From assembly GCA_026982335.1 (NCBI GenBank), contig JALSHH010000016.1, positions 1 through 64,000 of the forward strand: 64,000 bases of DNA, in the 5' to 3' direction. The translations under genes and the position numbers were made by a program. Shown here one piece after another: positions 1,532 to 60,531 of this stretch. Origin of the DNA: Phycisphaerales bacterium (lineage in GTDB: Bacteria > Planctomycetota > Phycisphaerae > Phycisphaerales > UBA1924). The number at the start of each line of letters is the position of its first letter. Within the stretch, counting starts at the first letter, position 1. Below the pieces are notes generated by a model, which worked only from the letters and a program-made list of their open reading frames with translations, was not told the origin of the DNA and did not search any database.

Positions 1532-2572
1532 ATGGCGGACACAGACCAACCCTACGAGAGCGAACTGATCCTCTACCAGACCCCCGACGGTGCGGTGCGT
1601 GTGGAGGTTCTTTACGAGGGCGAGACCTTCTGGCTGAACCAGAAGCGGATGGCGGAGTTGTTCGGGGTGGAGCTGCCGACCATAAGCTACCATCTGAAAG
1701 AGATTTACGCCTCTAGGGAACTGACGCCGGAGGCAACTCTTCGAAAAATTCGAAGAGTTCAAACCGAGGGTAATCGGGAGGTTCGGCGGGAGATCGAGTT
1801 CTACAACCTCGACGCGATCATCTCGGTCGGCTACCGGGTGAACAGCGTGCAGGCGACGCAGTTCCGCATCTGGGCGACGCAGACGCTGCGGGAGTTCATC
1901 GTCAAGGGGTTCGTGCTCGACGACGAGCGGCTCAAGCTCAACAAGCGGTTCGGGCGGGACTACTTCGATGAACTGCTCGAACGCATCCGCGAGATTCGCG
2001 CCAGCGAGCGCCGGTTCTATCTGAAGATCACGGACATCTACGAGCAATGCAGCATCGACTATGACAAGCGTGCCGAGATCACCAAGACCTTCTTCAAGAC
2101 GGTGCAGAACAAACTGCACTGGGCGGTGACGGGCAAGACGGCGGCGGAGATTATCGCTGAGCGTGTCGATGCCACAAAGCCCTCGATGGGCTTGACGACA
2201 TGGAAGAACGCGCCACAAGGCAAGATTCTCAAGAGCGACATCGGGGTTGCAAAGAATTATCTGATCGAAGAGGAGGTCAAGGAACTCGAACGCATCGTGT
2301 CCATGTACCTCGACTACGCCGAGAATCAGGCGGCGCGGCAGATCCCGATGAAGATGGCCGACTGGGTTGAGCGGCTCGATGCGTTCTTGAAGTTTAATGA
2401 ATACGAAGTGTTGACGAACGCGGGGAAGGTTTCGGCTGAGGTGGCCAAGCAACTGGCAAAGGCACAGTTCGAGAAGTTCCGTGTGAAACAGGACCAGGAC
2501 TTCGAGAGCGACTTTGAGAAGGAAGTGAAGCGAATTGAATCAAAGAACAAACCGAAGCGAGGCAGAGAATGA
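1532..2572 (+). CDS. rhuM: RhuM family protein
   Basis: Protein MADTDQPYESELILYQTPDGAVRVEVLYEGETFWLNQKRMAELFGV...SVGYRVNSVQATQFRIWATQTLREFIVKGF is characteristic of the RhuM family; ATGA overlap with the downstream res gene. Confidence 0.9.
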   Translation: MADTDQPYESELILYQTPDGAVRVEVLYEGETFWLNQKRMAELFGVELPTISYHLKEIYASRELTPEATLRKIRRVQTEGNREVRREIEFYNLDAIISVGYRVNSVQATQFRIWATQTLREFIVKGFVLDDERLKLNKRFGRDYFDELLERIREIRASERRFYLKITDIYEQCSIDYDKRAEITKTFFKTVQNKLHWAVTGKTAAEIIAERVDATKPSMGLTTWKNAPQGKILKSDIGVAKNYLIEEEVKELERIVSMYLDYAENQAARQIPMKMADWVERLDAFLKFNEYEVLTNAGKVSAEVAKQLAKAQFEKFRVKQDQDFESDFEKEVKRIESKNKPKRGRE

Positions 2573-5547
2573 AACTCCAGTTCGATCCCAACCAGCAGTT
2601 TCAACTCGATGCCATCTCAGCCGTCGTAGACCTCTTTGACGGCCAGCCAGTCGGCACGCCGGAGTACAGCGTCATCGACATGGGCAACTGGGGCGAGGTG
2701 TTCGGCGGCAAGGAACACACAGAGCTTGGCTCCGGAAACCGTCTACTGCTGGCCGATGACAAGTTGCTCACCAATACACGCAAGGTACAGGAAAGAGAGG
2801 ACATCGAGATTGATGATCCAGACGCACCGCTGGAGGCGTGGGAACTCTTCGATGCCCCGGCGGATGTCACTCGCAACTGTCCACATTTCTCTGTAGAGAT
2901 GGAGACGGGCACGGGCAAGACCTATGTCTATCTCCGGACGATCTTTGAGCTCTCGCAGCGGTACGGATTCCAGAAGTTCATCATCGTTGTGCCGAGCGTG
3001 GCGATTCGTGAGGGTGTGCTTAAGAACATCGAGATCACGGCCGAGCACTTTCGTGCTCTTTACAACAACCATCCCTTCGAGCACTTCGTCTACGATGCCA
3101 AGAAGGTCAGCCGTTTGCGCCAGTTCGCCACCAGTAATACGCTCCAGATTCTGGTGATGAACATTGACGCCTTCCGCAAGAACTTCACCGGGACCGACGA
3201 AGAGCGCAAGAGCAATGTGATCTACAAGGAGAGCGACAAGCTCTCGGGTCGCCAGCCTATCGAGTTCGTCCAGGCGGCACGCCCGATCGTCATCATCGAC
3301 GAGCCGCAAAGCGTAGATTCGACGGACAAAGCGCAGGAGGCAATCAAGGCATTGAACCCGCTCTGCACACTGCGGTATTCAGCGACGCACCGCAATCCAT
3401 ACAACTTGGTGTACCGCCTCGATCCCGTTCGTGCGTTCGAACTGAATCTCGTGAAGCAGATTATCGTTGCTACTGCCGCAGCCGACGGTGCTGCGAACGG
3501 TGCCTTCGTGCGCGTGGAGAAGATCGACTACAAGAAGGGCATCAAAGCGAAACTGCGATTCCTTGTTCAAGGCGCAGACGGACCCAAGGAAGCAAGCCGA
3601 ACCCTCAAACAGGGTGCGGACCTCTTCGCACTTTCAGGTGAGCGGGCAGAATACCAACATGGATACGAAGTCGCTGAGATCAACGCTGAGCCCGGCAGCG
3701 AGTTTGTCCGGTTCGCTAACGGCCGCACACTTCGGCTCGGTGAAGAGATCGGTGGGCTGCGAGATGATGTGTGGCGGGCTCAGATCAAGCACACGATCAA
3801 ACGGCATCTGGAGAAGGAGCTTCTGGTCAAGGGACGCGGGATCAAAGTACTGAGCCTGTTCTTCATCGACCGCGTGGCCAACTACCGCGACTACGATGGC
3901 GATGGCAAACCAGTCGCCGGGAAGTTTGCCGAGGCGTTTGAGGAGGAACTGGCAGTCCTGGCGAAAGAGGAACGATTCGCGGAGATCGAGTGGCTCAAGG
4001 AGCCTGTTGAATCCCTGCACAACGGCTATTTCTCGCAGGATAAAAAGGGTGTGCTCAAGGACACCCGAGGCAACAGCCAGGCGGATGACGACACCTATTC
4101 GCTCATCATGAAGGAGAAAGAGCGACTGCTCTCAATTGACGAACCGCTGCGATTTATCTTTAGCCATTCAGCCCTTCGAGAGGGATGGGATAATCCCAAT
4201 GTCTTCCAGATCTGCACGCTCAACGAGACGCGTAGCCCGGTCAAGAAGCGACAGGAGATCGGGCGAGGACTGCGTCTGCCCGTCGATCAAACCGGCAACC
4301 GTGTCTTCGACGAGTCAGTGAACAAGCTCTATGTGATGGCCAACGAGTCCTACGAAGATTTCGCGCGGGCGCTCCAGACAGAGTACGAGGATGAGTGTGG
4401 CGTTACCTTTGGAAAAGTTCCACTTACTGCGATCGCCAAACTTTCCAGAATCGTCGAGGATGTGCCGGAGCCGATAGGACGCGATGCTGCCAAGGAGATC
4501 AAGGGCGTTCTTGTCGAGCAAGGAATGCTCGATGACGAGGGGCGACTCCAGCCAGCATTCGATCCGAAGGCTGATGGATTCAAGATCGAGTTGCCACAGG
4601 GTTATCGTTCCCTGACCTCAGCGGTCGTTGATCTCCTCGCCAGCTACCAGATTGAGCGACATATCCGGCGAGAGCGTGACGACGGCCCCAACAAGCTGAA
4701 GAAAGAAGTCGTGCTCAGTCCCGAGTTCAAAGCCTTGTGGGACCAGATCAAGACAAAGACGACCTACCGGGTCGAGTTCGAGACCGATACGCTGGTCGAG
4801 AAGGCGGTGAGTGCCATAAAGCGGATGGAACGCATCGAGAAGCCGAAGATTTCGATAACAACCGGGGGCATGAAAGTTAAACGCGGCGGAATCGAGACCA
4901 CCGCTGTTGGTGCAGCGGTCGAAGATGTCAGCATATCACGCCACGCGGTTCCAGATGTACTCGCATATCTCCAGAACGAAACCGAGCTTACGCGATCTAC
5001 TCTCGTCCGAATCCTCCGTGAATCAGGGCGTTTGGATGAGTTCTTCAACCATCCTCAGCGGTTCATGGATGCCGTCGCTGGTATTCTGAAGTACGAGCTG
5101 CATCGGCTACTCGTTGACGGGGTGAAGTATGACCGCATCGAGGGTACGGGTTCAGATGCTGAATGGGAAATGCTGCTCTTTAAGAACGAGGATCTGATCA
5201 ACTATCTGACGGCGATCCAAGTCAATAAGTCAGTGTATGAGTATGTCGTGTATGACTCGGAAGTAGAACGCGAATTTGCGAAACGCCTCGACGAGCGTGA
5301 AGACATTCAGCTCTTTGTCAAGTTGCCAAATTGGTTCAGAGTGGAGACGCCGGTCGGCGAGTACAACCCAGACTGGGCCATCATCAAACATGATGGCCAG
5401 GCGATCTATCTCGTTCGTGAGACGAAGAGCACACACAAGTTCCTCAAATTACGGACAACTGAGGCTGACAAGGTCCGATGCGGGATAAAGCACTTCGAGT
5501 CACTCGGAGTGGACTTCAAGGTGGCCGTGACGGCAGACGAGGTGTGA
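2569..5547 (+). CDS. Type III restriction endonuclease subunit (Res), DEAD/DEAH-like helicase plus nuclease
   Basis: METGTGKTYVYLRTI (Walker A region), IIDEPQSVD, FSHSALREGWDNPNVFQICTL, EIGRGLRLPV, and C-terminal nuclease-like YNPDWAII..VRETKS. Confidence 0.94.
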   Translation: MKLQFDPNQQFQLDAISAVVDLFDGQPVGTPEYSVIDMGNWGEVFGGKEHTELGSGNRLLLADDKLLTNTRKVQEREDIEIDDPDAPLEAWELFDAPADVTRNCPHFSVEMETGTGKTYVYLRTIFELSQRYGFQKFIIVVPSVAIREGVLKNIEITAEHFRALYNNHPFEHFVYDAKKVSRLRQFATSNTLQILVMNIDAFRKNFTGTDEERKSNVIYKESDKLSGRQPIEFVQAARPIVIIDEPQSVDSTDKAQEAIKALNPLCTLRYSATHRNPYNLVYRLDPVRAFELNLVKQIIVATAAADGAANGAFVRVEKIDYKKGIKAKLRFLVQGADGPKEASRTLKQGADLFALSGERAEYQHGYEVAEINAEPGSEFVRFANGRTLRLGEEIGGLRDDVWRAQIKHTIKRHLEKELLVKGRGIKVLSLFFIDRVANYRDYDGDGKPVAGKFAEAFEEELAVLAKEERFAEIEWLKEPVESLHNGYFSQDKKGVLKDTRGNSQADDDTYSLIMKEKERLLSIDEPLRFIFSHSALREGWDNPNVFQICTLNETRSPVKKRQEIGRGLRLPVDQTGNRVFDESVNKLYVMANESYEDFARALQTEYEDECGVTFGKVPLTAIAKLSRIVEDVPEPIGRDAAKEIKGVLVEQGMLDDEGRLQPAFDPKADGFKIELPQGYRSLTSAVVDLLASYQIERHIRRERDDGPNKLKKEVVLSPEFKALWDQIKTKTTYRVEFETDTLVEKAVSAIKRMERIEKPKISITTGGMKVKRGGIETTAVGAAVEDVSISRHAVPDVLAYLQNETELTRSTLVRILRESGRLDEFFNHPQRFMDAVAGILKYELHRLLVDGVKYDRIEGTGSDAEWEMLLFKNEDLINYLTAIQVNKSVYEYVVYDSEVEREFAKRLDEREDIQLFVKLPNWFRVETPVGEYNPDWAIIKHDGQAIYLVRETKSTHKFLKLRTTEADKVRCGIKHFESLGVDFKVAVTADEV

Positions 5548-6788: not shown

Positions 6789-8977
6789 TTGCGAAAGATG
6801 TTCGGCAATTCCTGAAGAGATTTGAGACGACTCTCAAGGTGCTTGCTCGCGAAGGTCGGTATGTTGAACTGGATGCTCGATTCGATGACTACCAGAAGCT
6901 ATTGAACGCCTGGCTCGATGTTGCGCCGCCCGGGGTGTCACCGTCAGAGAGAATTCGTCTATTCTCGATTATTGACACATTTGGTGGTCCGCTCGAGATT
7001 GACGCACGCGATATTGCAGCAGCGGCGGCTTTATCTGGAGATAGCAGCACCGTCGTCACCTTAGCCGAGCAACTCCTTCATTCCGCATTTGCGTGCTTCC
7101 ATAAGCAACAACCACGCCTCATGGAAGAGTTTCTCAAACCCCTTGTTTTTCTGTACTACAGGTGTATACAAAATAAGCCTCTCGCCGAAGCACTTGGAGA
7201 TCGTCTCGACTCTGGACTTCACTCACTGTTGTCGGCAATACGATCACGATTACCAGATATGGACAACGATATCGGTGAAACAGATGAATCAGATATTGCA
7301 ACTCTTGATGTAGTACTTCGCTTCGCATTGTCGCTCCTCCATGCCGCGATCCGATACGAACAGATACAGCACGCCTCATACTTCATTGAGAGGATCTTCG
7401 AGCATCGGAAGTACAAGCAAAGACACCACGACCAAGTTGATGCAGTGAAAATATCGAGGAGCATTGAATCATTGTTTGACTATATTGCTGTCGTACTTGT
7501 GGGTTGGTCGCTTCACATTCTGCAAAGCAACGCCTGCAAGGATGCGAACGCAGCGGACACTGTATTCCGAACAGCAATTAGTCAACTGCCATCTATTCCT
7601 GTTCTAGTTGCCGAATGGGAATTACTCAGAGCTGGAGATTATCTAGAACCTGCTATTGATGCTCGACTAGGCATCGACCGCTGGGATATCCGTGATTGGA
7701 ATCGTGAGTTTCGTGCGGGTGTATGCGAAACGCGAATGGGAGGTACGAACTGGGTGCGACTTGGCTTGAATGCCGCGTTGCTTTGCTCTACAAAGCAATT
7801 CTGGGGTGATCAATCAAAGGTATTTGCAGAGCCACCGAAGCGATTCGTGTGGAACGCTTCTCAAGAGAGAGAAGCTCTTGAGAAGCTTGCTGCCGATGAA
7901 AGACTAGCAATCCCAGAAGATAAGCGAGAAGGTCGCGTTAATGCAGCGATGAGCATCATCGAGAGCCGTGCCAGGGGAGCAGACGCAAAGTACCTGCGCT
8001 ATGTGCTTGAACATTCGTTGTCCGATACACGGATAACCAAGCTCCGAGACGAGGCATGCAAGGCATATCAAGAGAACCTCTCATGGCAAAACGCCTTTCG
8101 TGAATGTGGCTTGAGCGAAGACATGCCGAAGTTCAGTCCGCTTCGTACAAGGTGGGGTATCTGGGTGCCTAGAGAGTACCTACTCGATGACAACAATTGG
8201 GCTTCCGGATTCGGGGAACAACTAGGTAAAGAGACAGCAGTCCGAGAGGCGATGGCGATCATCCATCTGATTGAGACAAATGCACCGCGTGGTCCAGAGC
8301 TTGACGCATTGGCTCGGTTGCCCGAGGTCGTGCGGTCTGCTCGAAGGCAGTTGTCGAACGATGGTTTTAATCCCAATGTGCTCATACTGCCTCGAGAAGA
8401 TCGATTTGCAGGAGCGTTGTATGGCAAACCACTCTGGCAAGTAGAGGGGCGTGGCGAGTTTGGAGAAGCAAGCATCGGCGTGTGGGAGCAGATGCATGTA
8501 CTACAGTTCCCATATTCAAACCCAGAGGCAATTCTCTTGATCGACACGCGCCGTACCCTTGCAAAATCCGAGATCAACAAGGATCGCGATGCAGTAAATG
8601 TGTGGGTCGACGAGAATCCGGTCAATCAAGAAATTGCAGAGAAAATAGCGAACGCAGCCAAGGCACTTGAAACGGAGGATGTCCCATTACCAGAGTCAAG
8701 CTCAATCCAAGTGCTTGCCCGGATGGAGACCTTGCCCAGCCTGGCACTCTCCGAGACGCAAGCAGTGATCGCCATCGATATCCGGAACAGTGACGGCGGC
8801 TATGCACTTCCTTCCGAATCCGATCTGTATCACCGTCCGTCATGTCCCGACATCGAGTTTGAAGATGTGGAGTACCTCCTACACTTGCCTCGAGACAGCA
8901 AACGCAACCCGTGTCCAAAATGCAAGCCCCAGCAATGGAATGTGGAAGCTCGTCGTGGGAAAGTAGATGGTGAATAG
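6785..8977 (+). CDS. Uncharacterised 730-aa protein with C-terminal HxxxC...CPKCKP putative zinc-binding tail
   Basis: Long ORF overlapping the upstream membrane-protein gene by 4 nt; C-terminus YHRPSCPDIEFEDVEYLLHLPRDSKRNPCPKCKPQQWN. Confidence 0.8.
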   Translation: MIAKDVRQFLKRFETTLKVLAREGRYVELDARFDDYQKLLNAWLDVAPPGVSPSERIRLFSIIDTFGGPLEIDARDIAAAAALSGDSSTVVTLAEQLLHSAFACFHKQQPRLMEEFLKPLVFLYYRCIQNKPLAEALGDRLDSGLHSLLSAIRSRLPDMDNDIGETDESDIATLDVVLRFALSLLHAAIRYEQIQHASYFIERIFEHRKYKQRHHDQVDAVKISRSIESLFDYIAVVLVGWSLHILQSNACKDANAADTVFRTAISQLPSIPVLVAEWELLRAGDYLEPAIDARLGIDRWDIRDWNREFRAGVCETRMGGTNWVRLGLNAALLCSTKQFWGDQSKVFAEPPKRFVWNASQEREALEKLAADERLAIPEDKREGRVNAAMSIIESRARGADAKYLRYVLEHSLSDTRITKLRDEACKAYQENLSWQNAFRECGLSEDMPKFSPLRTRWGIWVPREYLLDDNNWASGFGEQLGKETAVREAMAIIHLIETNAPRGPELDALARLPEVVRSARRQLSNDGFNPNVLILPREDRFAGALYGKPLWQVEGRGEFGEASIGVWEQMHVLQFPYSNPEAILLIDTRRTLAKSEINKDRDAVNVWVDENPVNQEIAEKIANAAKALETEDVPLPESSSIQVLARMETLPSLALSETQAVIAIDIRNSDGGYALPSESDLYHRPSCPDIEFEDVEYLLHLPRDSKRNPCPKCKPQQWNVEARRGKVDGE

Positions 8978-44423: not shown

Positions 44424-44843
44424 ATGCACTTCACCCTCATCGACCGCGTGCTCGAACGCTCCGACACCCAGATCGTCACCCTCAAGCATGTTTCGAGTGC
44501 GGAGGAATATTTGCAGGATCATTTTCCAAGTTTCCCGGTGCTGCCGGGGGTGATGATGCTCGAGGCAATGACGCAAGCAGCGAGGGTGTTTCTCGATCCG
44601 GATGACGCTGCCGAGTTGCCTTGGGTACTGACACAGGCCCGGGCCCTCAAATACGGCGCATTCGTCCGCCCGGGGGCTTCGATCCGTGTGACGATGACCA
44701 AGCACAAAGACAACGACGACGGCTCAGTCGATTTCAAAGGCGATGTTCGGCTTGTTGAACCCGATGGAGAAAATGACAACCTCCCCATCGCCTGCTCAGG
44801 GCGAATCACGCTTCGCCCGCTCAATATCCCGGTGAACGCATGA
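44424..44843 (+). CDS. FabZ/FabA-like hotdog 3-hydroxyacyl-ACP dehydratase
   Basis: IVTLKHVSSAEEYLQDHFPSFPVLPGVMMLEAMTQAARVFL. Confidence 0.88.
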   Translation: MHFTLIDRVLERSDTQIVTLKHVSSAEEYLQDHFPSFPVLPGVMMLEAMTQAARVFLDPDDAAELPWVLTQARALKYGAFVRPGASIRVTMTKHKDNDDGSVDFKGDVRLVEPDGENDNLPIACSGRITLRPLNIPVNA

Positions 44844-46483
44844 CCCTGATCTGCGTTCCCATCATGGTCGAAGACCACCACGAAGCCCTCCGCGATGCGA
44901 CGCTCGCAGCAGAGCATGGTGCGGATCTGGTCGAGTTTCGGGTTGATGTGTTCTTTGAGGATAAGGACGAATCGACCGACCTGCTGCAAGATCGGATTGA
45001 TCGGGTACTCGATCTGGTCGAGGTTTCGCCTCTGCCTTGTATTGTGACATGCAGGCCCCACTGGGAGGGCGGGGAATACCACGGCGACGATGACGAACGC
45101 ATCGCGCTCTATGAGGCGTTGGGGACGAGCGATTCGCCGCCGGCGTATATTGATGTGGAGTTGGCGACCTATACGCGATCGGCGAATATTCGCCAGAAGA
45201 TCAACCTCGCCGTCAACCACCCCAAGCAACAGCGGGCGGTTTCGACCCGGCTGATTCTCTCGACGCATGATTTCGAGGGTCGGCCATCCGACCTGACACG
45301 CAAAGTCTTGGCGATGCAGGATGAGCCGGCGTGCAGCGTGGTCAAGATTGCGTATCGGGCGCGGTCGATCCGGGATAATCTTGAGTTGTTCGAGATGCTT
45401 GGCGATCGCCAGAAGCCGACGATTGCGATGGGGATGGGGGAGTTTGGACTCATGAGCCGAATCCTCGCGCCTAAGTTTGGCGGTTTTTTGACCTTTGCCT
45501 CGCTTCGAGATGAATCGACGACGGCTCCGGGTCAGATCACGATTGATGAGCTGCTGAATCTGTACCGTTTCCGCTCCATCACGACGGCTACCAAAGTCTA
45601 CGGCATCATCGGTTGGCCGGTGACGCAGTCGATGTCGCCGATGGTTCATAATGCGGGGTTTGAGGCGATCGGGTGGGACGGGGTGTATGTGCCGATGCCG
45701 GTGGAGGGGAGTTATGAATCGTTCAAGGCGACGGTGCTGGCGATGATTGATTCGACGATGAATTTTACGGGGGCGAGTGTGACGATTCCGCATAAGGCGC
45801 ATCTTTTTCAGTTATCTATCCAAGAGAAACAGAATGGGATCTGGTGGGCCGATGACAACTCAACACTCTGCAAAACTGCGAACACACTTTTCCGCCCGTT
45901 GGTATTTGACGAAACTGACATTTTCGAGAACCATCTCTACAACACCGACTCATCCGCAATTATCTCACTACTTGGTGGAACAGATTCCAAGTTCTCAGGC
46001 AACCCTGTTTGTGTCTATGGTTCAGGTGGAGTCGCAAGGGCTGCTGTGCTTTCACTATGTCAGCGCGGTGCGAACATTGATCTTCGATTCCGTTCGCGTG
46101 AACCAGCAGAAAAACTGGCCGCATCCGCTGAAAATCTTGAAGGCACTCTACAACTTAACTCCATCGAAGATTCACCGTGCAATCTAGCAAAACTCTACAT
46201 CAACTGCACCCCCGTCGGCATGACCGACGGCCCGGACCCCGATGAGCTTTCGATTCCCATCCACGAGATGGACCAACTCGCACCCGAGACGGTGTTCTTT
46301 GATACGGTGTATAACCCGATCGAGACGCCGATGCTCAAGGCGGCGAGGGAACGGGGGTATCGCACGATTGATGGTGCAGCGATGTTCGTCAAACAAGCCG
46401 AGGCTCAGTTTGAGATTTGGACTGGACAATCGGCGCCCGATGGGTTGTTCGATCGGTTGGTGCGGAAGAAGTTGAGCGATTGA
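44840..46483 (+). CDS. aroDE: Bifunctional 3-dehydroquinate dehydratase (type I)/shikimate dehydrogenase
   Basis: N-terminal type I DHQase (ADLVEFRVDVFFED, CIVTCRPHWEGG, KIAYRA, IAMGMGEFGLMSR) fused to AroE (YGIIGWPVTQSMSPMVHNAGF, GASVTIPHK, YNTD, YGSGGVARAAVLSL). Confidence 0.93.
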   Translation: MTLICVPIMVEDHHEALRDATLAAEHGADLVEFRVDVFFEDKDESTDLLQDRIDRVLDLVEVSPLPCIVTCRPHWEGGEYHGDDDERIALYEALGTSDSPPAYIDVELATYTRSANIRQKINLAVNHPKQQRAVSTRLILSTHDFEGRPSDLTRKVLAMQDEPACSVVKIAYRARSIRDNLELFEMLGDRQKPTIAMGMGEFGLMSRILAPKFGGFLTFASLRDESTTAPGQITIDELLNLYRFRSITTATKVYGIIGWPVTQSMSPMVHNAGFEAIGWDGVYVPMPVEGSYESFKATVLAMIDSTMNFTGASVTIPHKAHLFQLSIQEKQNGIWWADDNSTLCKTANTLFRPLVFDETDIFENHLYNTDSSAIISLLGGTDSKFSGNPVCVYGSGGVARAAVLSLCQRGANIDLRFRSREPAEKLAASAENLEGTLQLNSIEDSPCNLAKLYINCTPVGMTDGPDPDELSIPIHEMDQLAPETVFFDTVYNPIETPMLKAARERGYRTIDGAAMFVKQAEAQFEIWTGQSAPDGLFDRLVRKKLSD

Positions 46484-58959: not shown

Positions 58960-60531
58960 TCACGCCCATTTGGTCAGGTGCCACTTTTTCTTGCCTCGAC
59001 GAATCGCGATGAACTGATCGTGGAGCAAATCCGCCTGGGTGAGTTTGGTGTCGAGGGTAGTCTTTGTGCCGTTGATTGAGACGGAACCTTCGTTGAGGAA
59101 CTCGCGGGCCTCGCGGTTTGATGAGGCGAGGTTGATCGCCTTGAGCAGCCCGACCATATCGACACCATCAGCCAGTTCCGCCTTGGCGTGTTCGGTGGTC
59201 GGGACACTGGCGAAGACTTCGAGCATGGTTTGTTCATCAAGCGAACCGATGTCGCCGCTGAAGAGGGCCTTGCCAGCGTTCTCGGCGTTGCGCATCGCGT
59301 CGTCGCCGTGGAGGATTCGGGTTGCTTCTTGGGCGAGTGTGCGTTGGAGTTCGCGCCTGCCGGGGTTTTCGGCGTGGGCTGCGATGAGCGATTCGATTGT
59401 TGGTTGATCGAGGAAGGTGAAGACCTTGATCCAGTTCGCGGCATCGTCATCGGAGGCGTTGAGCCAGAACTGGTAGTAGGCGTAGGGGCTGGTACGATTG
59501 GCGGTGAGCCAGACGGCCCCGGTTTCGGTCTTGCCGAACTTCCCGCCGTCGGCTTTGGCGACGAGGGGGGCGGTGAGGCCGAAGTTCGGGCTTGATGCCC
59601 ATTTCAACTCTTTAAGATGAGAGTCCCATCTACCTCGTATTTTCTCTGGCAAACTCACCTGGTGCTCATCCCAGTAATGCATTTGTTGACCTACAACTTC
59701 GTAGGACTGTTTCATCGCCTCATCTAGTGCAAGCTTAGGTGAAACCATAGTAAATCCATTTTTCATTGACTCACGGTACCGGTCCACCAAATCTGGATCG
59801 AGGTCCAGTTTGTCAAAATTATGAACGAACAAATCAGAAAAGTCACCCATCACTTCAACTCTGACACTGATCCGTTTACGACGAATCAAATCCCCACCCG
59901 CCACAATATTCCCATACTGATCGCTCCCGCCGAGTTGGACGGTGACGCCTTCGTGCTCGTAAAGATGAGCAAAATCGTACGCTTGCAGGATCATGTAGGA
60001 GAACTCGGTATAACTGATCCCCTGCTCGCGGTTGTTGAGCCGATCTTTGACGGATTCCTTCTGCATCATCATGTTGACGGAAAAATGCTTGCCGATATCG
60101 CGCAAGGCTTCGATGTAGGAGATTTTACTCAGCCAGTCGTTGTTGTTCTTGAGTTCGTGCTCCGGGCCTGCGATTGGGCCGAGCACGGCGTCGTAGATCG
60201 GGCGTTGGGAATCGACATTGTGCTGGACCATTTCATCGGTCATCATCATCCGCTCGGCGGACTTGCCCGAGGGGTCGCCGATGAGTCCGGTGCCGCCGCC
60301 CATGACGACGACGGGGGTATGCCCGGCCCGTTTGACATGGGCCAACAACATGATCGGGACGAGGTTGCCGATGGTCAGCGAGTCGGCGGTGGGGTCAAAC
60401 CCGGCGTAGATTTTTCGCGTGCCGGACTTGAGGTGATCGCGCAGCCCTTGCTCGTCGGTGCAGTCTTTGAGGAGCCCGCGCCAGGTGAGTTCGTCGATGA
60501 GATCAATCGTGCCTGCTTTGGTATCGGTCAT
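58960..60531 (-). CDS. tyrS: Tyrosine--tRNA ligase with ~96-aa insertion before the KMSKS-like loop
   Basis: YAGFDPTADSLTIGNL, GGSDQYGNIVAGGDLIRR, FGLTAPLVAKADGGKFGKTETGAVWL, C-terminal S4-like domain ending RRGKKKWHLTKWA. Confidence 0.95.
   Translation of the reverse strand: MTDTKAGTIDLIDELTWRGLLKDCTDEQGLRDHLKSGTRKIYAGFDPTADSLTIGNLVPIMLLAHVKRAGHTPVVVMGGGTGLIGDPSGKSAERMMMTDEMVQHNVDSQRPIYDAVLGPIAGPEHELKNNNDWLSKISYIEALRDIGKHFSVNMMMQKESVKDRLNNREQGISYTEFSYMILQAYDFAHLYEHEGVTVQLGGSDQYGNIVAGGDLIRRKRISVRVEVMGDFSDLFVHNFDKLDLDPDLVDRYRESMKNGFTMVSPKLALDEAMKQSYEVVGQQMHYWDEHQVSLPEKIRGRWDSHLKELKWASSPNFGLTAPLVAKADGGKFGKTETGAVWLTANRTSPYAYYQFWLNASDDDAANWIKVFTFLDQPTIESLIAAHAENPGRRELQRTLAQEATRILHGDDAMRNAENAGKALFSGDIGSLDEQTMLEVFASVPTTEHAKAELADGVDMVGLLKAINLASSNREAREFLNEGSVSINGTKTTLDTKLTQADLLHDQFIAIRRGKKKWHLTKWA

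Follow-up and report, generated by a model that had tools for sequence, protein, structure and literature searches.

How does an essential aminoacyl-tRNA synthetase come to carry, just ahead of its KMSKS-like loop, an in-frame segment of about 96 residues whose DNA differs in composition from the rest of the gene, and what could such a segment do? The question is raised by tyrS (58960..60531, minus strand) in a 64,000-nucleotide stretch of a Phycisphaerales genome (hereafter the window; genome G000), an intact ORF for a tyrosyl-tRNA synthetase (TyrS) of 523 aa that matches the Pfam models PF00579 (E 1.8e-70) and PF22421, the C-terminal SYY/S4 domain (E 3.9e-17). It resembles bacterial TyrRS of class Ic (Geobacillus 2ts1, E. 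coli 6hb5) in its catalytic core, KMSKS-like motif and S4-like C-terminal domain, and in an alignment of 38 sequences D204 and Q205 of the GGSDQ segment are invariant, as are K331 and K334 of the KMSKS-equivalent KFGKT (residues 331-335; 59527..59541, minus strand). Judged from the presence of a single tyrS copy in this 92% complete genome, the product is likely to aminoacylate tRNA-Tyr. A phmmer comparison with Geobacillus TyrRS 2ts1 (E 1.6e-112) aligned residues 9-221 with 1-211 and residues 316-523 with 215-419, so that the window TyrS has about 94 residues where 2ts1 has about 3. The insert itself, residues 221-316 (96 aa; 59584..59871, minus strand), is placed between a helix ending in R217-R218 (59878..59883, minus strand) and the strand FGLT.PL that leads to KFGKT. 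In the alignment to 2ts1 these two arginines correspond to R207-K208, which we take to be contacts to the tRNA acceptor arm. The preliminary description of this DNA had placed an in-frame insertion of about 96 residues before the KMSKS-like loop, and the 523-aa ORF, the boundaries of the insert and its sequence proved to be as it gave them.

The same description had called the insert AT-rich and unlike both flanks in composition, and so it proved: a GC scan gave 0.43 against about 0.59-0.65 in the surrounding DNA, and GC1/2/3 reads 0.55/0.30/0.45 for the insert, compared with 0.60/0.36/0.77 for one flank and 0.61/0.44/0.76 for the other. A frameshifted stretch is ruled out by these figures, as none of the three codon positions of the insert has a high GC. 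A GC3 of 0.48 or less occurs in only about 5% of 96-codon windows in the genes called in the 64-kb window, and although variable regions tend in general to be AT-rich, they do so too mildly to account for 0.41 (the least conserved windows have a mean GC3 of 0.61, well-conserved ones about 0.67). Across 18 long inserts of this and related genomes there are 0 stop codons in 1,623 codons, with 78 in shuffled sequences and 33-115 in the other five frames. All of these comparisons are between metagenome-assembled genomes (MAGs), with genes called by a simple longest-ORF script and duplicate copies of a locus from one genome taken out by hand. The window's own insert is found in one genome only; an assembly chimera, which the preliminary description had entertained should relatives lend no support, is nevertheless unlikely, as many independent genomes show the same architecture, with in-frame, stop-free inserts at one place.

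The genus of the window genome is represented by 21 genomes in our set, and in those compared first the stretch from DLIRR to FGLT measures 10, 10, 10, 10, 24, 34, 35, 38, 81, 81, 89, 96 and 101 residues. Further long inserts occur in G003 (about 81), G011 (about 89) and G009 (ambiguous sequence), and the two closest relatives of the window genome have inserts of 24 and 38 residues. The site holds 8-105 residues, always in frame, in 40 further genomes of the wider family, which were picked so as to take in every long-looking one. Among 101 sequences its length ranges over 5-106 and falls into two groups, 5-66 and 82-106, with none between, which we read as short loops (to about 66) and domains (82-106). 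Pairwise alignments showed the long inserts to be mutually unrelated except for the trio G015 (MAG UBA3190), G002 (MAG HKST-UBA15) and G003; a hidden homology of all long inserts was rejected, since beyond this trio the alignments gave only one weak short pair (G016/G035, Z 8.4). In two MAGs of Alphaproteobacteria, L074 and L075, the site is occupied by 40 and 57 residues, and these inserts arose independently. Assembly breaks or an N run were seen in the tyrS insert region of G017 (C170/C56) and G018 (C65), for which strain variation at the site could be the cause.

On a maximum-likelihood tree of the TyrS flanks insert length is scattered, also among close relatives. The flanks of G008 and G001 are 96% identical, and their inserts, of 89 and 34 aa, show no similarity; the loop of G010 is 10 aa long, although G015 and G002, to which it is closest, have an 81-aa type in common. 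Within this shared type the insert is 86% identical between G015 and G002, with pS 0.64 and pN 0.08 (the core has 86% identity and dN 0.10), and the insert of G003 is a 35% homologue. Because pN is far below pS in this comparison of one pair and one insert type, and because a homologue is kept in G003, the insert is selected as a protein in that type, whereas elsewhere it is exchanged in its entirety. We therefore have a translated, in-frame segment at one fixed site that is different in almost every species and replaced between very close relatives, and that is under purifying selection inside the one insert type of G015 and G002. This suggests that an enzyme usually regarded as almost invariant has a protein module that is exchanged time and again.

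Signs of replacement are also found in the DNA just upstream. The low-GC3 stretch of the window gene starts about 20 codons before the insert, within conserved residues (199-218, i.e. GGSDQYGNIVAGGDLIRR and the two before; 59878..59937, minus strand; GC3 0.50 vs 0.77), and stops sharply at the downstream end. In 18 sequences with long inserts GC3 is lowered by 0.22 over the 20 codons before the insert (p=4e-5), where the residues are conserved, and changes by +0.02 over the 20 codons after it; no such dip is seen in TyrS proteins whose site holds fewer than 24 residues. Between G008 and G001 synonymous differences amount to 12/17 just upstream of the insert vs 50/323 elsewhere (p=2e-6, uncorrected for about 105 pairs). 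The upstream tract of G008 is nearest to that of the distant G019, from which it differs at 3/17; other pairs are weaker (p 0.001-0.007, uncorrected). The recombination signal is thus a strong one for a single pair and a marginal one for the others, and the pattern is as expected from the import of an allele by recombination together with its upstream flank. In at least one sister pair the replacement thus appears, on limited codon data, to have carried about 20 codons of upstream coding DNA along. The one-sidedness of the GC3 dip departs from expectation, as recombination tracts would be expected to extend downstream in some cases, and relaxed codon choice to affect both sides alike. The alphaproteobacterial L074 shows GC3 values of 0.30 and 0.25 upstream and 0.85 downstream of its insert.

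The preliminary view that the insert was horizontally acquired or fast-evolving thus holds in part: the segment is real, atypical and fast-changing, with local evidence of recombination in the G008/G001 comparison, whereas a single acquisition peculiar to this genome is contradicted by the presence of a separate insert in nearly every member of the genus and by the range of lengths in the family. The converse idea of an old lineage trait, with close relatives carrying the same insert in host-like composition, is not borne out, as the relatives carry different inserts.

To see what kind of structure the segment might form we modelled the window TyrS with AlphaFold2 from 38 sequences, among which there were no homologues of the window insert. 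The mean pLDDT of the model is 86.8, with block means of about 47-87, moderate to low, in the insert. The conserved DLIRR helix is predicted to be prolonged into the insert (residues 203-238; 59818..59925, minus strand) and to be followed by helices at 246-257 (59761..59796, minus strand), 267-289 (59665..59733, minus strand) and 296-313 (59593..59646, minus strand), the last leading back into a core strand at 317-321. The model of the G002 enzyme (L050) has a helix to 239 and then helices at 247-255, 263-278 and 286-297, so that two inserts of unrelated sequence are predicted to share the same four-helix order. Such a shared layout without sequence similarity may reflect either a common, very fast-evolving domain or a common solution to the return of a prolonged helix. 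A fold search with both full-length models, in which the inserts were not compared in isolation, gave only TyrRS chains among the matches listed, and the solved TyrRS among these have no insert at the site, which in this family holds 5-106 residues.

Taking these observations together we tentatively favor a possible explanation, somewhat short of probable, in which diversifying selection acts on the insert as an exposed helical module, swapped by recombination between lineages with catalysis left untouched. The TyrS of this Phycisphaerales family would have one slot directly after the helix ending in the equivalents of R207/K208, which would take either a short loop or some 80-105 residues folded into a helical domain that prolongs the helix like an antenna. 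The module might present an exposed surface for interactions, with diversifying selection of the negative frequency-dependent kind acting on its identity. Most likely this would take the form of escape from, or shielding against, an agent acting on TyrRS, such as a natural inhibitor or a protein made by a phage or competitor, and core catalysis and tRNA recognition would stay the same. Diversification driven by an antagonist would be the likeliest driver, though unproven. Several points count against this explanation: the graded lengths of the short loops (5-66 aa) also fit a simple tolerance of extra sequence, no antagonist, partner or donor was found, purifying selection was estimated from one pair of one insert type, the recombination signal is marginal outside a single pair, and confidence in the modelled insert is moderate to low. 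Exchangeable recognition modules, such as the target-recognition domains of restriction enzymes, are alike in having a conserved frame, constraint within a type, replacement between relatives and recombination near the edges; they differ in that the frame here is an essential housekeeping synthetase. Lineage-specific insertions are known in synthetases and are usually conserved within a lineage. We found no report of a site such as the present one in the open-licence papers searched. A site refilled with unrelated sequence between sisters and conserved within a type would point either to an agent targeting TyrRS (and perhaps AsnB and AroE too) or to a simple natural setting in which the birth of new protein domains at one defined position can be followed. 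It also identifies a position at which TyrRS can accommodate a folded stretch of about 100 extra residues, a point of relevance to engineering and to models of how new domains emerge.

Such tolerance by itself might account for the insert, and we regard this as a somewhat doubtful explanation. The loop would be permissive, extra DNA would arise there by slippage, duplication or capture of non-coding sequence, its product would become helical through nucleation by the preceding helix, and it would be lost and regained without benefit, as in constructive neutral evolution. The graded short lengths, the lack of sequence similarity between most inserts, the AT-rich, weakly codon-biased DNA that looks like untuned sequence, and the independent inserts in L074 and L075 are all in line with this. 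A permissive loop does not account for the strong purifying selection in G015/G002 or the gap in length between 66 and 82, and the replacement between 96%-identical sisters is very fast for drift. Large indels are, moreover, otherwise nearly absent in these genomes. We surveyed 484 orthologue pairs from ten genomes (542 proteins, 180,000 aligned residues), mostly around the tyrS locus, for internal length differences of at least 20 between conserved anchors, and of the 17 found ten fell in TyrS, four in AsnB, one in AroDE and two in other proteins.

Alternatively, the insert could be a docking or regulatory domain that binds a partner peculiar to each species, be it protein, RNA or membrane, positions or regulates TyrRS, and diverges along with that partner; this we consider unlikely. 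Added domains of aminoacyl-tRNA synthetases often have non-canonical functions, and a predicted folded, constrained helical domain adjoining the KMSKS loop and the acceptor-binding helix is in keeping with this. In the mitochondrial TyrRS of Pezizomycotina (CYT-18), lineage-specific insertions in the catalytic domain make a new surface, which became the binding surface for group I introns (PMC4275181). The fungal insertions are, however, common to a subphylum, tied to intron splicing and located on the face opposite the tRNA, whereas those described here differ between sister species and follow a tRNA-contact helix. A docking domain would account for the constraint within a type, but as sisters with nearly the same enzyme have unrelated inserts or none, no common partner throughout the genus can be served. 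The inserts also fail to track tRNA-Tyr: in 20 genomes its acceptor and T arms are invariant except for one T-arm change each in G012 and G020 (no TyrS was recovered from either), and identical tRNA-Tyr is shared by species with inserts of 10 and 34, of 10 and 81, and of 24, 38 and about 87 residues. Because identical tRNAs accompany such different inserts, the insert does not follow tRNA recognition, and we rejected its co-evolution with tRNA-Tyr; the earlier proposal of new tRNA binding is likewise made less likely. The tRNA-Tyr survey also turned up 3' fragments of the gene (positions 30-83, 89-100% identical) at G006:C8:228619-228672, some 20 kb from the intact gene of this genome (MAG OFTM189), and at G005:C52:4145-4197 and 7669-7722, which are likely attachment-site remnants of integrated elements. 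A second tRNA-Tyr-like gene, 83% identical, stands beside the normal one at G015:C5:120071-120152, G010:C81:28000-28081 and G018:C42:105315-105396.

The indel survey also drew attention to the chromosomal neighborhood. Equal-length hypervariable segments, defined as at least 60 residues with identity of 0.30 or less between anchors, were found 22 times, each time in AsnB or AroDE. In the window the aroDE fusion (3-dehydroquinate dehydratase/shikimate dehydrogenase; 44840..46483, plus strand) has an AT-rich hypervariable segment, comparable to that of tyrS, at about residues 320-452 in the NADP-binding part of AroE (45797..46195, plus strand). Outside the window, at G000:C16:68431-70542, a gene for an AsnB-like asparagine synthase has an AT-rich hypervariable middle. 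The variable segments of AsnB and AroDE measure 130-180 residues, have lowered GC3 and keep fold motifs such as the Gly-rich motif of AroE; within the genus the variable parts of AroE and AsnB are 15-30% identical between flanks that are 70-97% identical. The genes asnB, tyrS and aroDE fit into a stretch of about 25 kb in G000 and one of about 15 kb in G006, and all three hypervariable genes (3/3) among 89 G006-G007 pairs belong to the 16 orthologues of this stretch. Extending the preferred explanation, one could picture an essential synthetase as the frame for a hypervariable, recombining module whose alleles move from one species to another under selection by antagonists, much as recognition or surface loci vary, with AsnB and AroE of the neighborhood under the same pressure; this we hold to be rather doubtful. 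The 3/3 clustering could instead suggest a regional cause, with the asnB-tyrS-aroDE segment a local hot spot of recombination or mutation and the tyrS insert one of its products, and the confinement of all 22 segments in 484 pairs to genes near tyrS is in its favor. We nevertheless consider a regional effect quite improbable as the explanation, as the intervening genes are ordinary (62-92% identical), the variable segments are limited to parts of genes, and the sample is small and chosen mostly around tyrS, which makes the clustering no more than suggestive. The window further encodes a type III restriction-modification endonuclease-like protein (2569-5547), which scores below the curated cut-off of its NCBIfam model.

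Searches for the origin of the window insert gave no match in its own genome (DNA and protein), viral contigs, phages, plasmids, Pfam or PDB, and ten other long inserts had no credible Pfam match; these searches yielded no outside donor and no support for duplicated genomic, phage or plasmid DNA. An intein, for which a splicing (Hint) domain and terminal Cys/Ser and His-Asn motifs would be expected, was rejected, as the insert has no Pfam match, starts with Ile and is followed by Phe-Gly instead of Cys/Ser/Thr. The target of a diversity-generating retroelement was likewise rejected, as lengths of 10-101 aa and unrelated sequences replace the expected fixed-length variable repeat. Rickettsia palindromic elements insert in frame into protein-coding genes. 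The present insert shares the in-frame insertion, but is neither palindromic nor repeated: there is one copy in G000, no inverted repeats of at least 10, and an RNA fold z of only -1.5, and such an element or another MITE-like in-frame repeat was set aside. A small selfish element that enters the tyrS site in frame and, in the manner of a homing element but with no splicing step, spreads while co-converting the DNA upstream of it is very improbable. The fixed site, patchy presence, AT-richness and one-sided flanking signal would suit it, but the insert is unrepeated, lacks inverted repeats and any Pfam match to an intein or endonuclease, found no relative among viral contigs, phages or plasmids, and is unrelated in sequence between species. 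In a scaffold of Microvirga roseola plasmid pAM1 (L078:1492-2847) we observed a TyrS with its KMSKS-like motif in tandem, ASGAQMGKT being repeated.
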